Virus record (IMG/VR): IMGVR_UViG_3300027782_000346
Location: 1 to 24,724 of that record
Source of the DNA: a virus
Length of the DNA: 24,724 nt
Strand: one strand, 5' to 3'
Shown here in pieces: positions 2,870 through 17,332 of this stretch; position 1 is the first letter of the stretch; each line of letters begins with the position of its first letter. A model generated the notes under the pieces. The model was not told the DNA's origin, did no database searches, and saw only the letters and a program-made list of their open reading frames with translations. Made by a program: the position numbers and the translations under genes.

Positions 2870-4077
2870 TAAGCAAAACTCCATTCTATCTTTGGCGTGC
2901 TTAGCATACCGACCGCGCCGCTCACTGCGTCAACATAGTCGTCATGCGGTGCGCTTGGAAATGCGACGACTTCATCTATAAAATCACGAGCCCACGCACC
3001 GGCAACGATGCGCACTGCGCCCGCTTCCGCTCGTCCGGCCCATGGCATCGCCCGTTGTACTTTGTCGCCCTTCACATCGATTCCGCGGAACGGTATCGTC
3101 GCCAACTCCGGAACTCTGCGCAGTTCTTGAACCGCCGCCAAGCCGTTCATGGCTTTTTCAATGCCGTGCGTCGTGTTCTCTTCGCTGCGCATCGTCGATA
3201 TTATCACGCGTCGCACGTCTGGCCATTCTGCGCGCATGTGAATGCCGTCGGCTATGTAGAGTACCCCTTCGTGCAAACAACACCGCACGGAGGCAGTATA
3301 GTCCGCTGATTGCTTTGTACTCGTTGCCAAGTCCCAATAGCGAAACCACTTGGCGCCGTGTGGTCGAATGTCGCCGACCCGTAGCCACTCACGACGAAAC
3401 AAAGCGCCGATTGGGTCGGTGAATTCGCCGTCCACTTCTTGGCGATACATCTCAGACGTCATTGACTGTTTCAACGTCGACACGAAGGTGTCATCGAGAA
3501 AGGTGTTGTCGGTCGTTTTACTTCGGATTGTGGCGTAGTCGCGATGGTCGCCAGTAAACAACTCATAGACCCAATCTTTCCCGCGTGGCGTCGTCGACAT
3601 CCAAGCTCGACCCGGTGCTTCGCGCAACGTCGCAATACTCAGTGGCCATATGTCTGCGTCCATCATAGCCACCTCGTCAAGCCAAAGCCACCCCGCATTT
3701 GCACCACGCAGTCGGTCAGGGTTATCAGCACTGCGAAATATGATGCGTCGGTCGCCGATAAGCCGTAGTTCCATCTCTGACTTGTTCCACGCGGTGACGA
3801 TGCCGGCCTTTGCGGTCAACTTGAGAATGGTCTCCATTGCGCCAAGCCGAAGCATGGGATACGTTGGAGCCACGACCAGTCCCGTGGTACCCTTCGGTTG
3901 GCGCAGTGCTTCCACCGCGCCGGCTCGGGTCTTACCAGAGCCACGACCGCCAACGAATAGCCGGAACCGTGCGTTACTCGCCCAAAACGCGCGCTGGGGT
4001 GACGTTTGCGAGCTGTGGCGTATCGTCGGTGCTAAGGTCGATGGTGTAGTCGGTTGGAGCGTTGGTGTTAACGACAT
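2869..4077 (-). CDS. terL: Terminase large subunit (ATPase and nuclease)
   Basis: This is a 402-residue packaging motor. The ATPase half shows Walker A 'GGRGSGKT' at residues 43-50, Walker B 'WLWLDE' ending in D134/E135, and a coupling motif 'STTPRG' near residue 162. The C-terminal half has the RNase H-like nuclease pattern, with 'RYWDLATSTKQSADYTA' and a terminal 'HDDYVDAVSGA'. It cuts concatemeric DNA and drives it through the portal encoded next door. The ATG at 4077 is the only start before Walker A, so the first 34 codons overlap the end of the small terminase gene, which is a long overlap for this genome. The length is at the short end for the family. Identification is secure; the cutting mode (cos or headful) cannot be read from the protein. 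Confidence 0.93.
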   Translation of the reverse strand: MSLTPTLQPTTPSTLAPTIRHSSQTSPQRAFWASNARFRLFVGGRGSGKTRAGAVEALRQPKGTTGLVVAPTYPMLRLGAMETILKLTAKAGIVTAWNKSEMELRLIGDRRIIFRSADNPDRLRGANAGWLWLDEVAMMDADIWPLSIATLREAPGRAWMSTTPRGKDWVYELFTGDHRDYATIRSKTTDNTFLDDTFVSTLKQSMTSEMYRQEVDGEFTDPIGALFRREWLRVGDIRPHGAKWFRYWDLATSTKQSADYTASVRCCLHEGVLYIADGIHMRAEWPDVRRVIISTMRSEENTTHGIEKAMNGLAAVQELRRVPELATIPFRGIDVKGDKVQRAMPWAGRAEAGAVRIVAGAWARDFIDEVVAFPSAPHDDYVDAVSGAVGMLSTPKIEWSFA

Positions 4078-4390
4078 GATGATTGTCTCGGTACTTCCAA
4101 GGACGAAGCCCCTTCAATAGGAATATCAGAAGAACATCGCTACCGGCTTTCGCGCGATCTCGCGCAATGCTCTCGAGTTCGTCCGCGCCGTCTTCCTGTG
4201 CGTCGTCGATGGCCTGTCGAAACTCATCATCGACGTCGCGCAGCTTGTACACTGCGCGTCTCGATACGCCTGCGATGGTCAGCGCTTGGCTAATGTTGCC
4301 GGTCTTTGAATACGCACGTAAGAACGGAACGCACCAAAGCGGACGACCGGGTAGATTGTATTCGCCTTCTTTGCGCTTGGCGATGGTCAC
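3974..4390 (-). CDS. terS: Terminase small subunit
   Basis: This encodes 138 residues from GTG 4390. A CGGAG site lies eight bases upstream and the GTGA overlaps the stop of the preceding holin-like gene, so I prefer this to the longer reading from 4483. Residues about 17-40 form a helix-turn-helix ('NISQALTIAGVSRRAVYKLR'), followed by an acidic helix and 'SDVLLIFLLKGLRPWKYRD', both typical of HTH-type small terminases. It should recognise phage DNA and hand it to the large subunit. The C-terminal ~34 codons overlap the large terminase start in another frame. Gene order (lysis, TerS, TerL, portal) supports the call. Confidence 0.85.
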   Translation of the reverse strand: MTIAKRKEGEYNLPGRPLWCVPFLRAYSKTGNISQALTIAGVSRRAVYKLRDVDDEFRQAIDDAQEDGADELESIARDRAKAGSDVLLIFLLKGLRPWKYRDNHHVVNTNAPTDYTIDLSTDDTPQLANVTPARVLGE

Positions 4391-4563
4391 CCGATTTTCT
4401 CCGAAGAGATGAACCGAAGCGCTACGTTGAGAATAGCCAACGCATACGCCAGCTGCGGAACCAAGTCTTTCATCTCGGGCCACTGTGTGACCGTGCCGAT
4501 TATCATCGTTGCCAAAGTCAACACGTTAATCCATACGGTCTTCGATTGATACCATGGTTTCAT
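4387..4563 (-). CDS. Small holin-like membrane protein
   Basis: This encodes 58 residues. It begins at ATG 4563 with AGGAG seven bases upstream and ends at a TGA overlapping the GTG of the small terminase. The sequence begins 'MKPWYQSKTVWINVL', has a hydrophobic segment at about 11-27 and a second at about 37-52, and ends with a short polar tail. The opening resembles small phage membrane proteins that begin with a KSKT-W-N pattern and sit next to lysis or packaging genes. Placement directly after an amidase and an XhlA-like protein suggests it forms or regulates the membrane lesion that releases the endolysin. The role is inferred from topology and neighbours. Confidence 0.65.
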   Translation of the reverse strand: MKPWYQSKTVWINVLTLATMIIGTVTQWPEMKDLVPQLAYALAILNVALRFISSEKIG

Positions 4564-9113: not shown

Positions 9114-11247
9114 AACTCAACATCCCTTCTTCGGTCATTGCGTCTAATTGACGTTGGCATACTTCGATAGCTATTTGTGTCCTCGTCGCAATAGCTTTAG
9201 CGGTCAAAGATATTCCGCCAAGCGCTCCCAAGATTCGTTGTGAAAATACCGCGTTTATACTAATACGTTCACTCTGTTCACTCTTGACCGGTTTGATTGA
9301 TTCTATAGCCTCAAACCTATCGTTCACTCTTGATTCACTCTCGTTCACTCTTGGTAACTCTTGGTAACTCTTTACCTCACTTTCGTTCACTCTCTCTAAA
9401 GAGTTACCAGAGTTACCATAGTTACTAGAAGTACTAGAGTGAACAGAGTGAATGATATTAGTAATAGGAAGAGTGCTATAACGACCGTACGAAACACGTT
9501 GAACCAGCTTATCTTCGAGTAGTCTGCGTAGGTGTTTCTTGATAACCGATTCTTCGCGGCCAAGCTCCGTAGCGATTTCTTTTGGCGACCAAGTGTAGGT
9601 TTGGTTTTTCTCCATCACGTCGTACACTGCCCGTCGCTCCGAGCCAGTCGCCGCCAACACTTTGGACTTCGGGTCAACCACGTGGCTTCCAAGCATGTCA
9701 TCCCATGCAAGCTCAACACGATCCACGCCGGCAATGTTTCGGTCAGTCATGCGAAGGATTGACACATATTCGCTTGCGGGGTCTCGTGTCAATAACCACA
9801 TCGCATCGACGGCCCCGCTGATGCCTGTAGAGCCGCTGATTTTGTCGAACGGGTTATCGTCTTTGGTTATCTTGGTTTTGTTTGTGTGATGCACAACAAT
9901 GATTGTTATATTCCGCCGTTGTGCAATGCGTTGAATCTGTTTGAGTGCGTCGTAGTCCGAAGAGTACACTGGCGTACGTGGGTCGACCGGCTCTCGCCAC
10001 TGCGCCAACACGTCGATGATAACCACGCGGATATCAGGGTTGTTGTCGAGACGGTTTTCTAAGTCTTGACCGGCGAGGACTCCGCGGTTTGGCCAATCCT
10101 GATTAAAACCGAAATACAAGTTTTTTGGCCAGTCCCCGAAGTTCATCGAAGACAATCGACGGTGCACGCTGTTCTTACTCATCTCAAGGTCGAGATACAA
10201 CACGCTGCACTTTGTTTTTACTTCGAATGTTTTGAATACTTCGGTGCCGGTGGCGACAGCGACGGCGAGGTGCAAAGCCAAGAAGCTTTTGCGACTCTTC
10301 GGAGCGCCGGCGAGGATGTAGCACCCCGTGGTCATGATGTCGTCAACAATGTACTCGACCGGTGCGACGTCTTCTTTTTGCATGTCCGCAGCACTGTAGA
10401 TAGTTGGTAATGCATGAACGAACTCGATGTCGTAAACATCCTCAAGGTTGTGCAAGTCTTCCGCCGACCAAAGTCGCATAAAGTCCGCAAGATCGCCCTT
10501 GTCGGATAATCCAAGATTGACCACGCGCACCTTGTAGCCAACACTGCGCAACTGCGTACGCAGAGCCGCGGCCGCCGTCTTCCCCTTCGAGTCACAATCC
10601 ATAGCAATGACAATCTCGCCGGTGTACGCTTTGCGGACGTCTTCGAGGAGTGCTTCGGGCATCGCCTTCTCGCCGCCACCGGTGACGCTGAATGCAGCGA
10701 CGCCGTGCGACTGGGCCGCGACGGTCGATGCTTCGCCGTTGCACAGTACCAGCGGGAAGCCGCCTTTGTTGGCAATGTCGACTGCTTCGGGGAACTTGTA
10801 CAGACATTGCTTATAGCCGGGCAAACTTTTAAATACCGGCGTTTTACCATCGATGTATCGATATCGAACACCGTTGACCGAATCGATGACAAAGCATGGT
10901 CTGCGCTGATGCTCGCCAACGGCCCACCCAGCCAATCTAAGGGCTTCCAAGGTCAACCCGTGACTCTCTGCATACCCTTCGTGCGTGGTGGCCGTCTTGG
11001 TGTCAATACTTGGCGCAATCTTTGGAAGCGTGACGCCAAGGTGTTTGGCCAATTGATACAGTGACCCGCCTTTGTTGGCGACGTGGTCGAACCACTTGCC
11101 ATGCTCGGGACCGTCGATGGTCAGACTGAACGCGTCACTGTCCGAGCCGGTGCGGTACGGTGAACCGCTTCGATACTTCCCCTCCCCGACATCGCGGAGG
11201 TTGTGCGCACTGCGTAGTGCGGATATAACTTCGTCGGCAGTGCTCAT
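9073..11247 (-). CDS. Bifunctional primase-helicase (Toprim plus RepA/RecA-like ATPase)
   Basis: This 724-residue protein is the main replication enzyme in the window. Residues 1-80 resemble a degenerate primase zinc-finger region that has lost its cysteines ('KWFDHVANKGGSLYQLAKHLG'). The Toprim domain lies at about 165-260, with 'LCNGEAS' (E172) and 'AMDCDSKGK' (D217, D219), the metal-binding residues of DnaG-type primases. The ATPase has Walker A 'AGAPKSRKS' (313-321) and Walker B 'VVIID' (408-412), in the RepA/RecA-like helicase style. A winged helix follows at about 535-590, then a Ser/Asn/Glu-rich linker (about 598-660) and a second helical domain. The DNA for that linker contains a cluster of 9-bp repeats. 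The start overlaps the stop of the upstream RHH gene by ATGA. Confidence 0.87.
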   Translation of the reverse strand: MSTADEVISALRSAHNLRDVGEGKYRSGSPYRTGSDSDAFSLTIDGPEHGKWFDHVANKGGSLYQLAKHLGVTLPKIAPSIDTKTATTHEGYAESHGLTLEALRLAGWAVGEHQRRPCFVIDSVNGVRYRYIDGKTPVFKSLPGYKQCLYKFPEAVDIANKGGFPLVLCNGEASTVAAQSHGVAAFSVTGGGEKAMPEALLEDVRKAYTGEIVIAMDCDSKGKTAAAALRTQLRSVGYKVRVVNLGLSDKGDLADFMRLWSAEDLHNLEDVYDIEFVHALPTIYSAADMQKEDVAPVEYIVDDIMTTGCYILAGAPKSRKSFLALHLAVAVATGTEVFKTFEVKTKCSVLYLDLEMSKNSVHRRLSSMNFGDWPKNLYFGFNQDWPNRGVLAGQDLENRLDNNPDIRVVIIDVLAQWREPVDPRTPVYSSDYDALKQIQRIAQRRNITIIVVHHTNKTKITKDDNPFDKISGSTGISGAVDAMWLLTRDPASEYVSILRMTDRNIAGVDRVELAWDDMLGSHVVDPKSKVLAATGSERRAVYDVMEKNQTYTWSPKEIATELGREESVIKKHLRRLLEDKLVQRVSYGRYSTLPITNIIHSVHSSTSSNYGNSGNSLERVNESEVKSYQELPRVNESESRVNDRFEAIESIKPVKSEQSERISINAVFSQRILGALGGISLTAKAIATRTQIAIEVCQRQLDAMTEEGMLSYDATVQRYKQTNA
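9267..9453. repeat. Iteron-like cluster of 9-bp direct and inverted repeats
   Basis: Within the primase-helicase gene, GTTCACTCT occurs at 9267, 9276, 9322, 9343 and 9385 (with ATTCACTCT at 9333). Its inverse AGAGTGAAC/T occurs at 9436 and 9445. A second word, GGTAACTCT, occurs at 9353 and 9363, with its inverse AGAGTTACC at 9400 and 9409. Spacings of 9, 10 and about 21 bases place several copies on one helix face, and left and right halves are mirror images around about 9395. The protein encoded here is a low-complexity linker, so coding does not obviously require the pattern. It resembles the iterons of an origin located inside an initiator gene, as in lambda gene O. Confidence 0.7.
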
Positions 11248-11432
11248 TGTTGCGCTTCTTCCCGGCTCTTCGTTGTCTTCGTTGCTTTGGCGAGTATCTG
11301 GGTAATCAGTGCGTTTCGTGTGATGCCCTTCAAATCAGCGTTGCGGTTCAACTCCTTGACCGTGTCGGCATACACATAGACCGTGAACTTCTCCATCGGT
11401 CGAGCGGACTGGTCTTTGCGTAATCTCGGCAT
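11244..11432 (-). CDS. Ribbon-helix-helix DNA-binding protein (first copy)
   Basis: This encodes 62 residues from ATG 11432, which has a perfect AAAGGAGG site six bases upstream; longer frames would run through the terminator. Residues about 13-50 match the CopG/Arc ribbon-helix-helix layout: a beta strand 'EKFTVYVYADT', a helix 'VKELNRNADLKG' and a second helix 'TRNALITQILAKA'. Such dimeric proteins bind operators, often repressing their own operon. It is the first gene after a terminator and a possible promoter and is ATGA-coupled to the primase-helicase, so it may control or assist replication, perhaps by binding the repeats in that gene (inference). Confidence 0.72.
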   Translation of the reverse strand: MPRLRKDQSARPMEKFTVYVYADTVKELNRNADLKGITRNALITQILAKATKTTKSREEAQQ

Positions 11433-11751: not shown

Positions 11752-11927
11752 TGGTTTGCCTTTTGAAATAACAAGACCATGTCGTCGTGTGCTATTTTCA
11801 CTGCGTGTATTATCTTTTCTAATTTTGGTCGCCAAATGAAAATAAACTGTGCGTGTGCTCGAGTGATTGGGTGTATGTTTGCAATTGCTTTTGCAAGCCG
11901 TTTTGCCTTATATTGTTTATATGTCAT
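11748..11927 (-). CDS. Small hypothetical protein, 59 residues
   Basis: This frame starts at ATG 11927, overlapping the second RHH gene's stop by ATGA, and ends at TGA 11748, overlapping the next start by ATGA. The protein begins 'MTYKQYKAKRLAKAIANIHP' and continues with a basic and hydrophobic mix ('FIFIWRPKLEKIIHAVKIA'). Clean 4-base overlaps at both ends in this compact genome support it as real. The base composition is more A+T rich than that of its neighbours, which hints at separate acquisition. No function is recognised. Confidence 0.55.
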   Translation of the reverse strand: MTYKQYKAKRLAKAIANIHPITRAHAQFIFIWRPKLEKIIHAVKIAHDDMVLLFQKANQ

Positions 11928-12100
11928 TGCTTCGCCTCATTAACCACGACCCGCAAAAGGTCGTTTATAAGCTTATTCCGTGATGTTCCGCGTGTCTTGG
12001 CGATAATATGCAATGCTTCAGCAATGTCTCGTGGTAAACGCACTGCAAAGGTCGTGGCAATAACTCCGCTGGGCTTCGGGCCAGGTCGTAGCTTGGTCAT
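11924..12100 (-). CDS. Ribbon-helix-helix DNA-binding protein (second copy)
   Basis: This encodes 58 residues from ATG 12100, with TGGAG five bases upstream. The opening 'MTKLRPGPKPSGVIATTFAV' is basic, and the remainder is a CopG-type ribbon-helix-helix: strand 'ATTFAVRLP', helix 'DIAEALHIIAKTRG', helix 'SRNKLINDLLRVVV'. It should bind DNA as a dimer and may regulate transcription. Its ribosome binding site abuts the T run of a terminator-like hairpin (12110-12143), leaving no room for its own promoter, so expression should depend on read-through from the SSB-like gene. It is a second, distinct RHH protein beside the one at 11244-11432. Confidence 0.72.
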   Translation of the reverse strand: MTKLRPGPKPSGVIATTFAVRLPRDIAEALHIIAKTRGTSRNKLINDLLRVVVNEAKQ

Positions 12101-13591: not shown

Positions 13592-13607
13592 CGAGTTTTA
13601 AAACTCG
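13592..13607. repeat. 16-bp perfect palindrome over the Dam stop codon
   Basis: CGAGTTTT is followed directly by its inverse AAAACTCG, spanning the TAA stop of the Dam-type gene and lying 24 bases upstream of the -35 box of the 13540-13568 promoter. It could be an operator or the core of a weak terminator; no T run follows. Confidence 0.4.
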
Positions 13608-14143
13608 CATATTTTGCCCAAATCTGCGAACGCACTGCGAAACCTGTCGGGCTCATTGCCAACGTAGAGCGCCACTTGACCGCGTGTGTTTCTGTCGACG
13701 GTCATGCCTTGCGGTTGCTTAAATTGGATGCGTCGCGCAAAGATGCACATCGCTGCGGTGATGCTCATCGCTTCATGAAACCACGTGGCGTCGGTTGCGT
13801 TGTTGACGAGGATAACGCCATGTGACCAGCTGACACCGTGTTCGATGACCACACGATGCACGCATTGCCCAATGACGAGACGTGCATAGGGTGGATTAGC
13901 AAAGAGCGTGCGCACCTTTGGCCATGAACGATGTAGTGCGTTGTTCTCTCGTGTGTAATACGTCGCGGCTTGCACGGTCGTCTGGGCTTCGTCGCAACTA
14001 AACGGGTCGAGGTCGATGGTGCCCAAAGCGGTGCGCACACGGTCAACGATAGGTGCTGGCGTGTACCACTCGCCGTTGTCGCTGCGTGCCGTGTAGTACT
14101 CTTCGGTGAACGGTAGCCGTGGCTCTTCTTTACTGCGTTTCAT
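13598..14143 (-). CDS. Phage Dam-type DNA N6-adenine methyltransferase
   Basis: This encodes 181 residues from ATG 14143, with AAAGG nine bases upstream. The N-terminus has the hallmark order of the phage Dam-like family: 'EWYTPAPIVDRVRTALG', 'IDLDPFSCDEAQ', 'AATYYTRENNAL', then 'LFANPPYA' (the catalytic NPPY). Later 'GVILVNNATDATWFHE' and 'QFKQPQG' are also typical. The enzyme transfers a methyl group from AdoMet to adenine in DNA, probably to evade host restriction. No endonuclease partner is encoded nearby. The gene overlaps the preceding tandem-HTH gene by 14 bases and ends in a palindrome. It is the second methyltransferase of the window and belongs to a different family from the one at 5642-6727. 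Confidence 0.85.
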   Translation of the reverse strand: MKRSKEEPRLPFTEEYYTARSDNGEWYTPAPIVDRVRTALGTIDLDPFSCDEAQTTVQAATYYTRENNALHRSWPKVRTLFANPPYARLVIGQCVHRVVIEHGVSWSHGVILVNNATDATWFHEAMSITAAMCIFARRIQFKQPQGMTVDRNTRGQVALYVGNEPDRFRSAFADLGKICEF

Positions 14144-14882
14144 TCGACCGCACCTTTCTGTATGCAAGCTTATGACGCCAAGTGTATGTTCGTGCGGATG
14201 TATAGTTCACATTCAGGTCGTCCGCAATTTCATGCATCGTCCTCGATGCGAACCATTCCGGGTCGGTCGGCCACGTGATGCGGTATTCGTCGTACTTGGA
14301 ATTGATGCCGTGCTTATGCAAGTAACCGTATACGGTATTTTGTGGGATGTTGAGTGCTATCATGATTTCTGTCGCTGTCCGCTCTTCGTACCATCGCACG
14401 TCACGCGGCCATTTGTGTTTTCTGCGAATGCGCACTTTGTAACCGTTCTGATTTATGTGTCTTCGCATGACTTTCCAACTAACTTGCAACTCGTCCGCAG
14501 CTTGTTGGCTTGTCCGCATCGCGTACCATTCTGGCGACGTCGGGAAGTCCGCAGTAACCCGTGGTCGTCCTCTGCCCTTAGTGACGATACCGTGTTCAAT
14601 GCAATACTCTTTGACTTCGCGCCAAGGCTTCAATAACTCTATACCGATTTGCTTAATTGACCGCAAAGAATACCACGAAAGATCTGTGGGATAGTCTGAT
14701 AACTCTTCGAACTGTAGCACCATGATGGCACCGTGGTGCTTCATACCGCGCACTTCTTCGAAGTGGAAGCCGACATCATCGACAGGGATGTTAAGCGCCC
14801 GCGCAATGTACCAGCTGGGGTTGTCGCTCTGTAGGGTCGCTATCACGTCATCGGTATAGCGGAGGTCGTCTTTGCAAATCAT
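14130..14882 (-). CDS. Tandem helix-turn-helix repeat protein (A)
   Basis: This 250-residue protein is built of repeats. Four units begin with a Pro-containing segment and a conserved Trp-Tyr/Phe: W70 ('DLSWYSLRS'), W119 ('SPEWYAMRT'), W164 ('DVRWYEERT') and W210 ('DPEWFASRT'), spaced 49, 45 and 46 residues apart. Each continues as an HTH-like pattern ('ATEIMIALNIPQNTVYGYLHKHG' and equivalents) followed by a basic tail. A fifth, divergent unit may lie at 18-48 ('NPSWYIARALNIPVDDVGFHF'). Such an array should contact a long DNA site, one recognition helix per unit. It is ATGA-coupled upstream and overlaps the Dam-type gene downstream. I know no named family with exactly this layout. Related units occur singly in HTH endonuclease-associated and phage regulatory proteins, so that is an alternative origin. 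Confidence 0.7.
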   Translation of the reverse strand: MICKDDLRYTDDVIATLQSDNPSWYIARALNIPVDDVGFHFEEVRGMKHHGAIMVLQFEELSDYPTDLSWYSLRSIKQIGIELLKPWREVKEYCIEHGIVTKGRGRPRVTADFPTSPEWYAMRTSQQAADELQVSWKVMRRHINQNGYKVRIRRKHKWPRDVRWYEERTATEIMIALNIPQNTVYGYLHKHGINSKYDEYRITWPTDPEWFASRTMHEIADDLNVNYTSARTYTWRHKLAYRKVRSNETQ

Positions 14883-15316
14883 AGTAGTTTTAACTGTCCT
14901 TCCTTGACGCCATGGCGCTCGACGTTGTCTGCGTAGGTGCCGTCGAAGTCGCCATCTTTTAACCGTCGCGCGATGTCGGTCGCTGCTCCTCGGTGCGTGT
15001 GAGCCGCCAAGGTGTCCGCTGCTGAATTACAGTAATTAATGGATAACTTGTACCCGTTAAGTTTGACACTACCGCTGTCGGTGCTGCTTAACTTTGGGAA
15101 AATGTACACATTCATCCAGTAGTACGAGCCGTTGCGCTCATCGACGTAGTATTCGCCAACGACGCCATTCTTTCCGCGCATCTCTCTGCCTTGCGAAGCA
15201 ACGACTATTACCAATTCATCAGTGTCGAACTCTGTGCGTTGACAGTAGAGAAACCGACCCCATAGTGGTACTATCTCTTCGTTCTCTTGGTGTCTGGTGA
15301 AAAACTTGCGTGTCAT
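14879..15316 (-). CDS. Hypothetical protein between the two tandem-HTH genes
   Basis: This encodes 145 residues from ATG 15316 (ATGA overlap with the preceding stop), ending in ATGA overlap with the next gene. The N-terminal two thirds looks beta-rich ('LWGRFLYCQRTEFDTDELVI', 'GVVGEYYVDERNGSYYWMN', 'GSVKLNGYKLSINYC'). The last third is helical and charged ('GAATDIARRLKDGDFDGTY'). I recognise no family. Its placement between two genes with repeated HTH units in a coupled block suggests the three act together, but no sequence feature proves it. Confidence 0.55.
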   Translation of the reverse strand: MTRKFFTRHQENEEIVPLWGRFLYCQRTEFDTDELVIVVASQGREMRGKNGVVGEYYVDERNGSYYWMNVYIFPKLSSTDSGSVKLNGYKLSINYCNSAADTLAAHTHRGAATDIARRLKDGDFDGTYADNVERHGVKEGQLKLL

Positions 15317-15921
15317 ATCAATCCTTCCCGATGTAAGAACCGCCAATACTTCGCCGTGCTCCACTTAATCCCGAGCGCTTCGCCAGCTTCTTTATCATTC
15401 GATGTCGAGTCCAAGATAGCCCGCTGCTCGTCGGTAATGACGACGCGCACCTTTGGCGCACGAATGTTCATTGTGGTTCGTAGCATCCAAATGGTACGAC
15501 CGCTGACGTCCAAAGCTTTGGCCACGCGTTCATTGCTAAATGAAGACCGAAGCAACACCATGACCGACTCGGTAAGTTTTACCGGGTCTTTGATACGCTT
15601 GCCCACGTGACGTCGACGCATAACTTCGATAGTCGAGTACGCAATACCAAAGCGCTTCGCCAGTTGTTGGTTCGTTGCTTTGCCTTCGAATGCACGCAAC
15701 ATCTCGCCCGTAACATGATGATTCCGGATGGTGCGGTGTGAGTCTGGGACCAAGGTGCGACGCAGTTTGTAAACGGTCGCGTAACTGTAGCCGTATTCAT
15801 CGGCAACGCTTCGTGCGGATCGCGACGCATCCCACAAAGCCGCCTCGAAGGCGGCTCCGTGTTTCTCGATGTATCGCTGTGCGGTTTCCATGGTGAACGT
15901 GTATTTCTGTGGCGCTCTCAT
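15313..15921 (-). CDS. Tandem helix-turn-helix repeat protein (B)
   Basis: This 202-residue protein starts at ATG 15921 (ATGA overlap). Four HTH-like units follow each other: about 33-56 ('ARSVADEYGYSYATVYKLRR'), 82-104 ('NQQLAKRFGIAYSTIEVMRR'), 128-150 ('NERVAKALDVSGRTIWMLRT') and 174-197 ('DKEAGEALGIKWSTAKYWRF'). The equivalent Gly/Asp turn positions (44, 92, 138, 184) are 46-48 residues apart. The units resemble the recognition segments of small phage HTH proteins, but four in a row in one chain is unusual. The linkers are basic ('RRHVGKRIKDP'). It probably binds a long DNA target as a regulator or nucleoid-type protein. Unlike protein A, its units lack the Trp-Tyr signature. Confidence 0.7.
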   Translation of the reverse strand: MRAPQKYTFTMETAQRYIEKHGAAFEAALWDASRSARSVADEYGYSYATVYKLRRTLVPDSHRTIRNHHVTGEMLRAFEGKATNQQLAKRFGIAYSTIEVMRRRHVGKRIKDPVKLTESVMVLLRSSFSNERVAKALDVSGRTIWMLRTTMNIRAPKVRVVITDEQRAILDSTSNDKEAGEALGIKWSTAKYWRFLHREGLI

Positions 15922-16969: not shown

Positions 16970-17105
16970 GCGTCAACACGAAACACGTCACGTGGTACAA
17001 TGTTTACGGATGCGGAAGTCACTAAATACCACGTTCGTGTTCGCCTTGCTCGGTGACGACCGACGGTTGATTGCAGACGTAGCGCGCAAATGCTGTAGGA
17101 ACTGT

Positions 17106-17150
17106 AAAAAGCAAACACGAAGCCCACACGCCAGTCCGCGTGTGGGCTTC
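17106..17150 (-). terminator. Probable terminator of the tail operon
   Basis: GAAGCCCACACG pairs perfectly with CGTGTGGGCTTC (arms 17119-17130 and 17139-17150, short loop). On the minus strand the stem is followed by GTGTTTGC and then five Ts, a T-rich but interrupted tail. On the plus strand no T run follows. It is probably the end of the tail transcript. Confidence 0.55.
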
Positions 17151-17192: not shown

Positions 17193-17205
17193 CTGAATAA
17201 GTATA

Positions 17206-17239
17206 CACCAACGCCACCCCATATGGGATGGCGTTGGTG
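17206..17239. other. Long hairpin downstream of the tail genes
   Basis: CACCAACGCCA pairs with TGGCGTTGGTG around a central CCCATATGGG palindrome, giving 14 of 15 paired positions. Neither strand shows a T run after it. It may slow polymerase, protect the tail mRNA 3' end or be a protein-binding site. Confidence 0.55.
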
Positions 17240-17332
17240 CAGATGACCGTCACGGGAAAGGCACCGCTTCGGATAATTGATTATAGCACCGCGATGCAGT
17301 TCTGCCAAGAATAAGACACCGCGGTATTCGTA

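Follow-up and report, generated by a model that had tools for sequence, protein, structure and literature searches.

Two neighbouring genes of a small uncultured tailed phage encode proteins, A and B, which we interpret, with moderate confidence, as phage DNA-binding regulators built of tandem, exchangeable HTH units, in which A is the core protein, B is an accessory, paralogue-like one, and a site common to the promoters P1 (at the start of the A operon) and P2 (at the start of the replication operon) would be the best candidate target. The window, that is, the whole stretch of 24,724 bases analysed here, is an entire IMG/VR virus record whose ends are classed as linear, so that it may be a fragment. 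Its genes, all of which lie on the minus strand together with the promoters described below, include those for a tape-measure protein, the small and large terminases, a primase-helicase and two DNA methyltransferases (PHROG, Pfam). Scans of viral contigs yielded 31 loci encoding A and 16 encoding B (relatives are numbered L001 onwards), and the lineage carrying A consists of small siphoviruses. No match at E 0.01 was obtained by tblastn when A, B and two divergent relatives were compared with 50,697 phage genomes. A scan of genome contigs yielded no relative and hence no host; the variability of the unit alignment made it unsuitable for a collection scan.

Protein A (250 aa, 14130-14882) consists of five tandem three-helix HTH units according to its predicted structure. 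The initial annotation had recognized four units led by Trp-Tyr/Phe (W70, W119, W164 and W210), whose coordinates, reading frame and residues proved to be correct, and to them can now be added a divergent fifth unit at the N-terminus, around W24. The W[YF] pairs at residues 24, 70, 119, 164 and 210 are spaced by 46, 49, 45 and 46 residues, and the self-alignment of the protein scored 145 vs a maximum of 42 among shuffled sequences, with the best offsets at 91, 49, 94 and 46. In the AlphaFold2 model, made from 21 aligned sequences (mean pLDDT 80.6), fifteen helices form five groups of three, at residues 11-44, 68-96, 117-146, 162-190 and 208-236. The last four groups belong to unit 2 (residues 64-100, 14583-14693, W70; unit HMM E 2e-14), unit 3 (residues 113-149, 14436-14546, W119; E 9e-19), unit 4 (residues 158-194, 14301-14411, W164; E 3e-17) and unit 5 (residues 204-240, 14163-14273, W210; E 3e-20). 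Unit 1 (residues 11-44, 14751-14852), with model helices at 11-17, 23-30 and 34-44, is the most conserved and also atypical, carrying a net charge of -3. It is probably not a DNA reader because its third helix is acidic (VDDVGFHFEEV), and it may instead serve protein contact. The charge of A as a whole is near neutral (37 K+R vs 33 D+E), and generic HTH profiles, such as Sigma70_r4 (20/21) and GerE (18/21), match nearly all of the A members.

Protein B (202 aa, 15313-15921, pI 10.3) comprises four tandem B-type HTH units and is matched by Pfam HTH_23 (E 3.4e-11). The B-unit HMM and the structural model place unit 1 at residues 24-65 (15727-15852), unit 2 at residues 70-112 (15586-15714), unit 3 at residues 116-159 (15445-15576) and unit 4 at residues 162-200 (15322-15438). 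The turn residues that had been assigned at 44, 92, 138 and 184 are indeed G44, G92, D138 and G184, each of which falls immediately past helix 2 of its unit in the model, and the self-alignment score of 72 exceeds the shuffle maximum of 35, with the best offsets at 46, 48 and 92. AlphaFold2, supplied with 11 aligned sequences, returned four three-helix groups and one N-terminal helix (pLDDT 82.1), and a BFVD entry, A0A6J5NGN6, is 46% identical to B along its length. Comparison with the closest relative shows both frames to be under purifying selection (dN/dS 0.15 and 0.05 for A and B, respectively), and they are therefore real genes.

Structure prediction of each protein alone, proposed in the initial annotation as a check on the HTH reading, gave the HTH fold in every unit, so that in the models A holds five and B four HTH units in one chain. 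The pTM values of the two models are low (0.31 and 0.44, respectively), as expected for beads on flexible linkers, and therefore the relative placement of the units is not predicted. A fold search of the PDB recovered weak matches to single HTH domains (Z up to 4.5 and 5.2 for A and B, respectively), many of them from DNA-binding HTH proteins, including homeodomains, Mos1, resolvase, LuxR-type proteins and sigma region 4, none of which was strong; for the predicted models, these matches support the HTH fold but no particular family. The sigma-70 factors were set aside, as Pfam found nothing of a sigma factor in the window protein beyond region-4-like HTH matches, and the core-binding region 2 domain is absent. 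The weak, partial matches to small terminases were likewise rejected, and the window has a separate TerS gene at 3974-4483 (phrog_4044 2.1e-17).

The earlier statement that HTH proteins carry one or two motifs was too sweeping. Cbp1 of Sulfolobales possesses three HTH domains, which arose by domain duplication, align in order on one DNA site and bind CRISPR repeats (PMC10883916), while in phage homing endonucleases with NUMODs, small DNA-binding modules are strung into an elongated chain covering as much as 30 bp (PMC3943268), and these modules are combined in varied patterns (PMC3943268, PMC1564403). Cbp1 (NCBIfam NF040595) resembles A and B in its tandem HTH domains and gives partial profile matches to both; it differs in having three units and in being archaeal, and the scores of 21.0 bits for A and 23.3 bits for B, compared with the curated cut-off of 140, led us to reject A and B as members of that family. 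The strongest PDB sequence match, 8VD6 ('CAP REPEAT'), has five tandem HTH-like repeats and is matched by the A and B profiles, but its units are 33 aa long, and it was discarded as a natural relative, being named in a protein-design paper (PMC12339374). Tandem HTH proteins are thus already known, T5 D5, archaeal Cbp1 and the NUMODs of homing endonucleases among them, and A and B are an unusually modular variant. Literature searches for phage proteins with tandem or multiple HTH did not turn up a description of this family; what is new is a family of phage tandem-HTH proteins whose units are exchangeable, together with a concrete operator hypothesis.

The likeness to chains of NUMOD modules raises the question of whether A and B are the targeting arms of homing endonucleases, left as relics after loss of the nuclease. 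PHROG families of HNH endonucleases match the HTH parts (phrog_8446 in 19/21 A members), and the matches in the viral structure library (BFVD) comprise phage endonucleases besides a T5-type D5 protein and unnamed proteins. However, a Pfam scan admitting E values up to 1 detected no HNH, GIY-YIG or LAGLIDADG domain in either protein, which excludes them as homing endonucleases proper, and strong purifying selection and conserved synteny are unlike those of relics, making such an origin highly improbable.

Among the relatives, the units of A behave as modules. Nearly all A relatives begin with the same block of about 54 residues, MICRDDLRYTDDVIATLQS...YHxEEVxGMxHNG; the perfect YTDDVIA in these relatives partly reflects how the scan pattern selected them, but conservation extends to the remainder of the N-terminal block. 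Behind this block, most A proteins carry four Trp-led units, those of L025, L027 and L028 three and that of L031 two, so the proposed search for homologues with different unit numbers has succeeded; the Trp-Tyr pair has been lost from the A units of L028. In L012, protein A matches that of L007 as far as about codon 130 and that of L006 beyond it, and judging from this alignment the recombination point coincides with the start of unit 3, a unit boundary. Hybrid proteins occur with two B-type units and one C-terminal A-type unit (L028), with about three B-type units and one C-terminal A-type unit (L083), and with a single B-type unit ahead of three A-type units (L085), and L106 encodes two adjacent hybrids, each of B-type units plus one A-type unit. 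The A-unit and B-unit profiles align with an hhalign probability of 94% across 30 columns, and the A and B designs therefore probably branched from within a single unit family. The suggestion of modularity, against which units not varying as modules would have spoken, is thereby borne out by unit numbers of 2-4, by swaps between proteins and by a break at a unit boundary. Protein A is split in L029/L065 (IMGVR_UViG_3300008111_000316), where the N-terminal 35 codons lie in one frame and the four Trp-led units in a separate frame just downstream, owing to a frameshift or an early stop. L020 (IMGVR_UViG_3300020044_007529) is a recombinant phage, with tail genes 90-94% identical to those of the window and an A only 36% identical; no B was seen beside its A, and a 190-aa gene occupies the Dam position.

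A is core to the lineage and B is accessory. A-type units are found in every contig that carries the conserved hairpin marker and at least about 4.2 kb after it, a whole clade (L014, L017, L019, L021-L024, L029 and L034) lacks B, and full B-type proteins were seen only in contigs of the A lineage. B thus depends on the context of A more than A depends on B, and the idea of an obligate cooperation between the two cannot be upheld, as the whole B-less clade has A. The synteny is conserved, running from the tail genes through a long intergenic region and small genes to B, (C), A, (Dam or another gene) and the replication genes. B, a 145-residue protein (C) and A had been described as one coupled block, and A, B and C are indeed coupled via start/stop overlaps, but gene C (14879-15316) is not a fixed part of it. 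It is absent in L001, the closest relative, where the B stop overlaps the A start directly and the ATGA junction is re-formed; it precedes B in L018, and elsewhere it lies between B and A or is missing. Gene C is a movable, optional cassette. Between A and P2 there is a second optional cassette, a gene for a Dam-type adenine methyltransferase (13598-14134; Pfam Dam 3.9e-18).

DNA binding by A and B is plausible from the predicted fold, the charge of B and the pattern of helix 3 in the A units. When 17 full-length A proteins were compared, the slot-specific information at the five helix-3 positions that should point towards DNA exceeded that of random five-position sets (p=0.0024); this information is highest at the DNA-facing positions of helix 3, followed by helix 2 and the turn, and least at buried positions. 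Such a pattern would fit units that contact different bases; it is supportive only, because exposed positions vary more in general, and does not prove a per-unit code. Positive selection in the recognition helices of A was sought and not found (dN/dS 0.11 in helix 3 and 0.16 elsewhere), and helix 3 of the A units is under purifying, not diversifying, selection.

T5 D5 offers another way in which such a protein might act: its HTH units would bind dsDNA mostly without specificity and coat the phage genome, and replication and late transcription would depend on it, with no discrete operator. D5 is a phage protein of similar size (255 aa), has several HTH-like units, is encoded among replication genes and is annotated as DNA-binding and as required for replication and late transcription; a 2026 preprint describes an HTH in it and names the protein as a trigger of a retron (PMC13405049). 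Its family, PHROG 323 ('transcriptional regulator, D5-like'), matches 20/21 A members at E<=0.01 (best 2e-15), the A of the window only partially (0.0024), and the structure matches of A in BFVD include a T5-like D5 protein (E 2.1e-5). In contrast to A, the repeats of D5 are not regular, and its internal repeat score is not significant, being reached by 21 of 200 shuffles. Since the direct match of the A profile to D5 is weak (9.2 bits) and covers generic HTH stretches, D5 is, on present sequence comparisons, a functional parallel to A rather than a shown homologue. The near-neutral charge and the position-specific recognition helices of A fit specific reading better, and we therefore regard D5-like coating of DNA as unlikely.

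If A reads DNA specifically, a candidate site lies at the two promoters that flank it. P1 (16969-16941) is a sigma70-like promoter upstream of the operon running from orf16622 to B-C-A-Dam, and its spacer contains the shared site CAATAGCATGATATA; P2 (13568-13540), a perfect TTGACA-17-TATAAT promoter with the same spacer, follows A and Dam and precedes the replication genes. The two have the sequence CGCTTGACwGATwCAATAGCATGATATAwAAT in common, which occurs in exactly two copies in the window even when up to three mismatches are allowed, and their best gapless score is 23 (+1/-2 scoring) vs a maximum of 14 among 1488 random genome pairs. In most relatives checked, a paired, lineage-specific spacer motif is likewise present in exactly two copies, and the pairing of spacers within phages is supported by a permutation test (p=1e-4). 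The P1 and P2 spacers of L004 are identical, and in this phage and many relatives P2 directly adjoins the A stop in place of Dam, its -35 box overlapping the A stop codon in many of them. The B-less clade has a different motif, ATTGATATGCTATA, exactly twice, at P1 and P2, which is retained even where the -35 box of P1 has decayed to TTGCAT; L028 has CGCTATACAGTATAG-like sites at both promoters, and the main clade has a third motif, ATATACGnTAATATACG-like with three mismatches at most, which is again confined to P1 and P2. Similarity between the two spacers is weak, or a single spacer was found, in L005, L083 and some phages of the main clade. The spacer is better conserved than the -35 hexamer, is paired within genomes and differs from lineage to lineage, and in these respects it looks like an operator.

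A is a candidate reader of P1 and P2 because its gene alone is invariably flanked by the two sites, and we propose this role tentatively. The Trp-led units of A would then most likely lie side by side in the major groove along one extended site, and A would be an autoregulated switch of early genes. A somewhat more doubtful alternative is that another phage protein or a host factor reads the site, with A and B acting on host DNA or in another process. The paired spacers could come from promoter duplication or reflect a host factor, and the covariation of operator class with A sequence and recognition residues is confounded by shared ancestry; L014 and L017, for instance, share the same motif though their A unit 2 is only 43% identical. 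Two products of the replication operon are possible alternative regulators, namely orf11924 (11924-12100), which weakly resembles a CopG-type ribbon-helix-helix protein (RHH_1, E 0.0014, below the Pfam cut-off), and a small protein without a family match (11244-11429). The constant position of A next to both sites, and of P2 against the A stop codon in many relatives, speaks against another reader. It is quite improbable that A and B are instead replication initiators binding origin repeats. Their operon precedes the replication genes, and the 3' part of the primase-helicase gene of the window phage contains short tandem DNA repeats (9320-9449; period 10/20 and 9), which could be origin iterons, but A and B are encoded in the operon before P2, far from these repeats.

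The intergenic region also contains two conserved noncoding elements. The first (17204-17325, minus strand), after the tail genes, is a conserved structured RNA (fold z-score -6.7) that has a 10-bp stem with compensatory changes and a conserved apex; 98.7% of cells are paired, the covariation score exceeds all 500 shuffles, and the stem is followed by a strong terminator hairpin. Rfam gave no match for this element and no known RNA, and a 24-nt pattern derived from it marks 46 contigs. The second (approximately 17040-17113, minus strand), AGCATTTGCGCGC...CCGAGCA, is located between a second terminator and P1 and is 92% identical across 75 bp in the distant relative L028.

Modular DNA readers with naturally interchangeable units are rare, zinc fingers and TALEs being examples. 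A modular reader of HTH units in small phages, if true, would be a new source of readable, possibly programmable parts. We think it distinctly unlikely, for the present, that every Trp-led HTH unit recognizes a few base pairs of its own and that the phages redirect their early-gene switch through the gain, loss and exchange of units, with the P1/P2 operator changing in step. If it were true, the code of the A units would be natural, evolvable, legible from sequence and reprogrammable. The lineage itself supplies natural variants: its A proteins have between 2 and 4 Trp-led units, hybrid proteins occur, and operators of at least three classes sit at fixed positions. Whether each unit reads its own bases is therefore directly testable.
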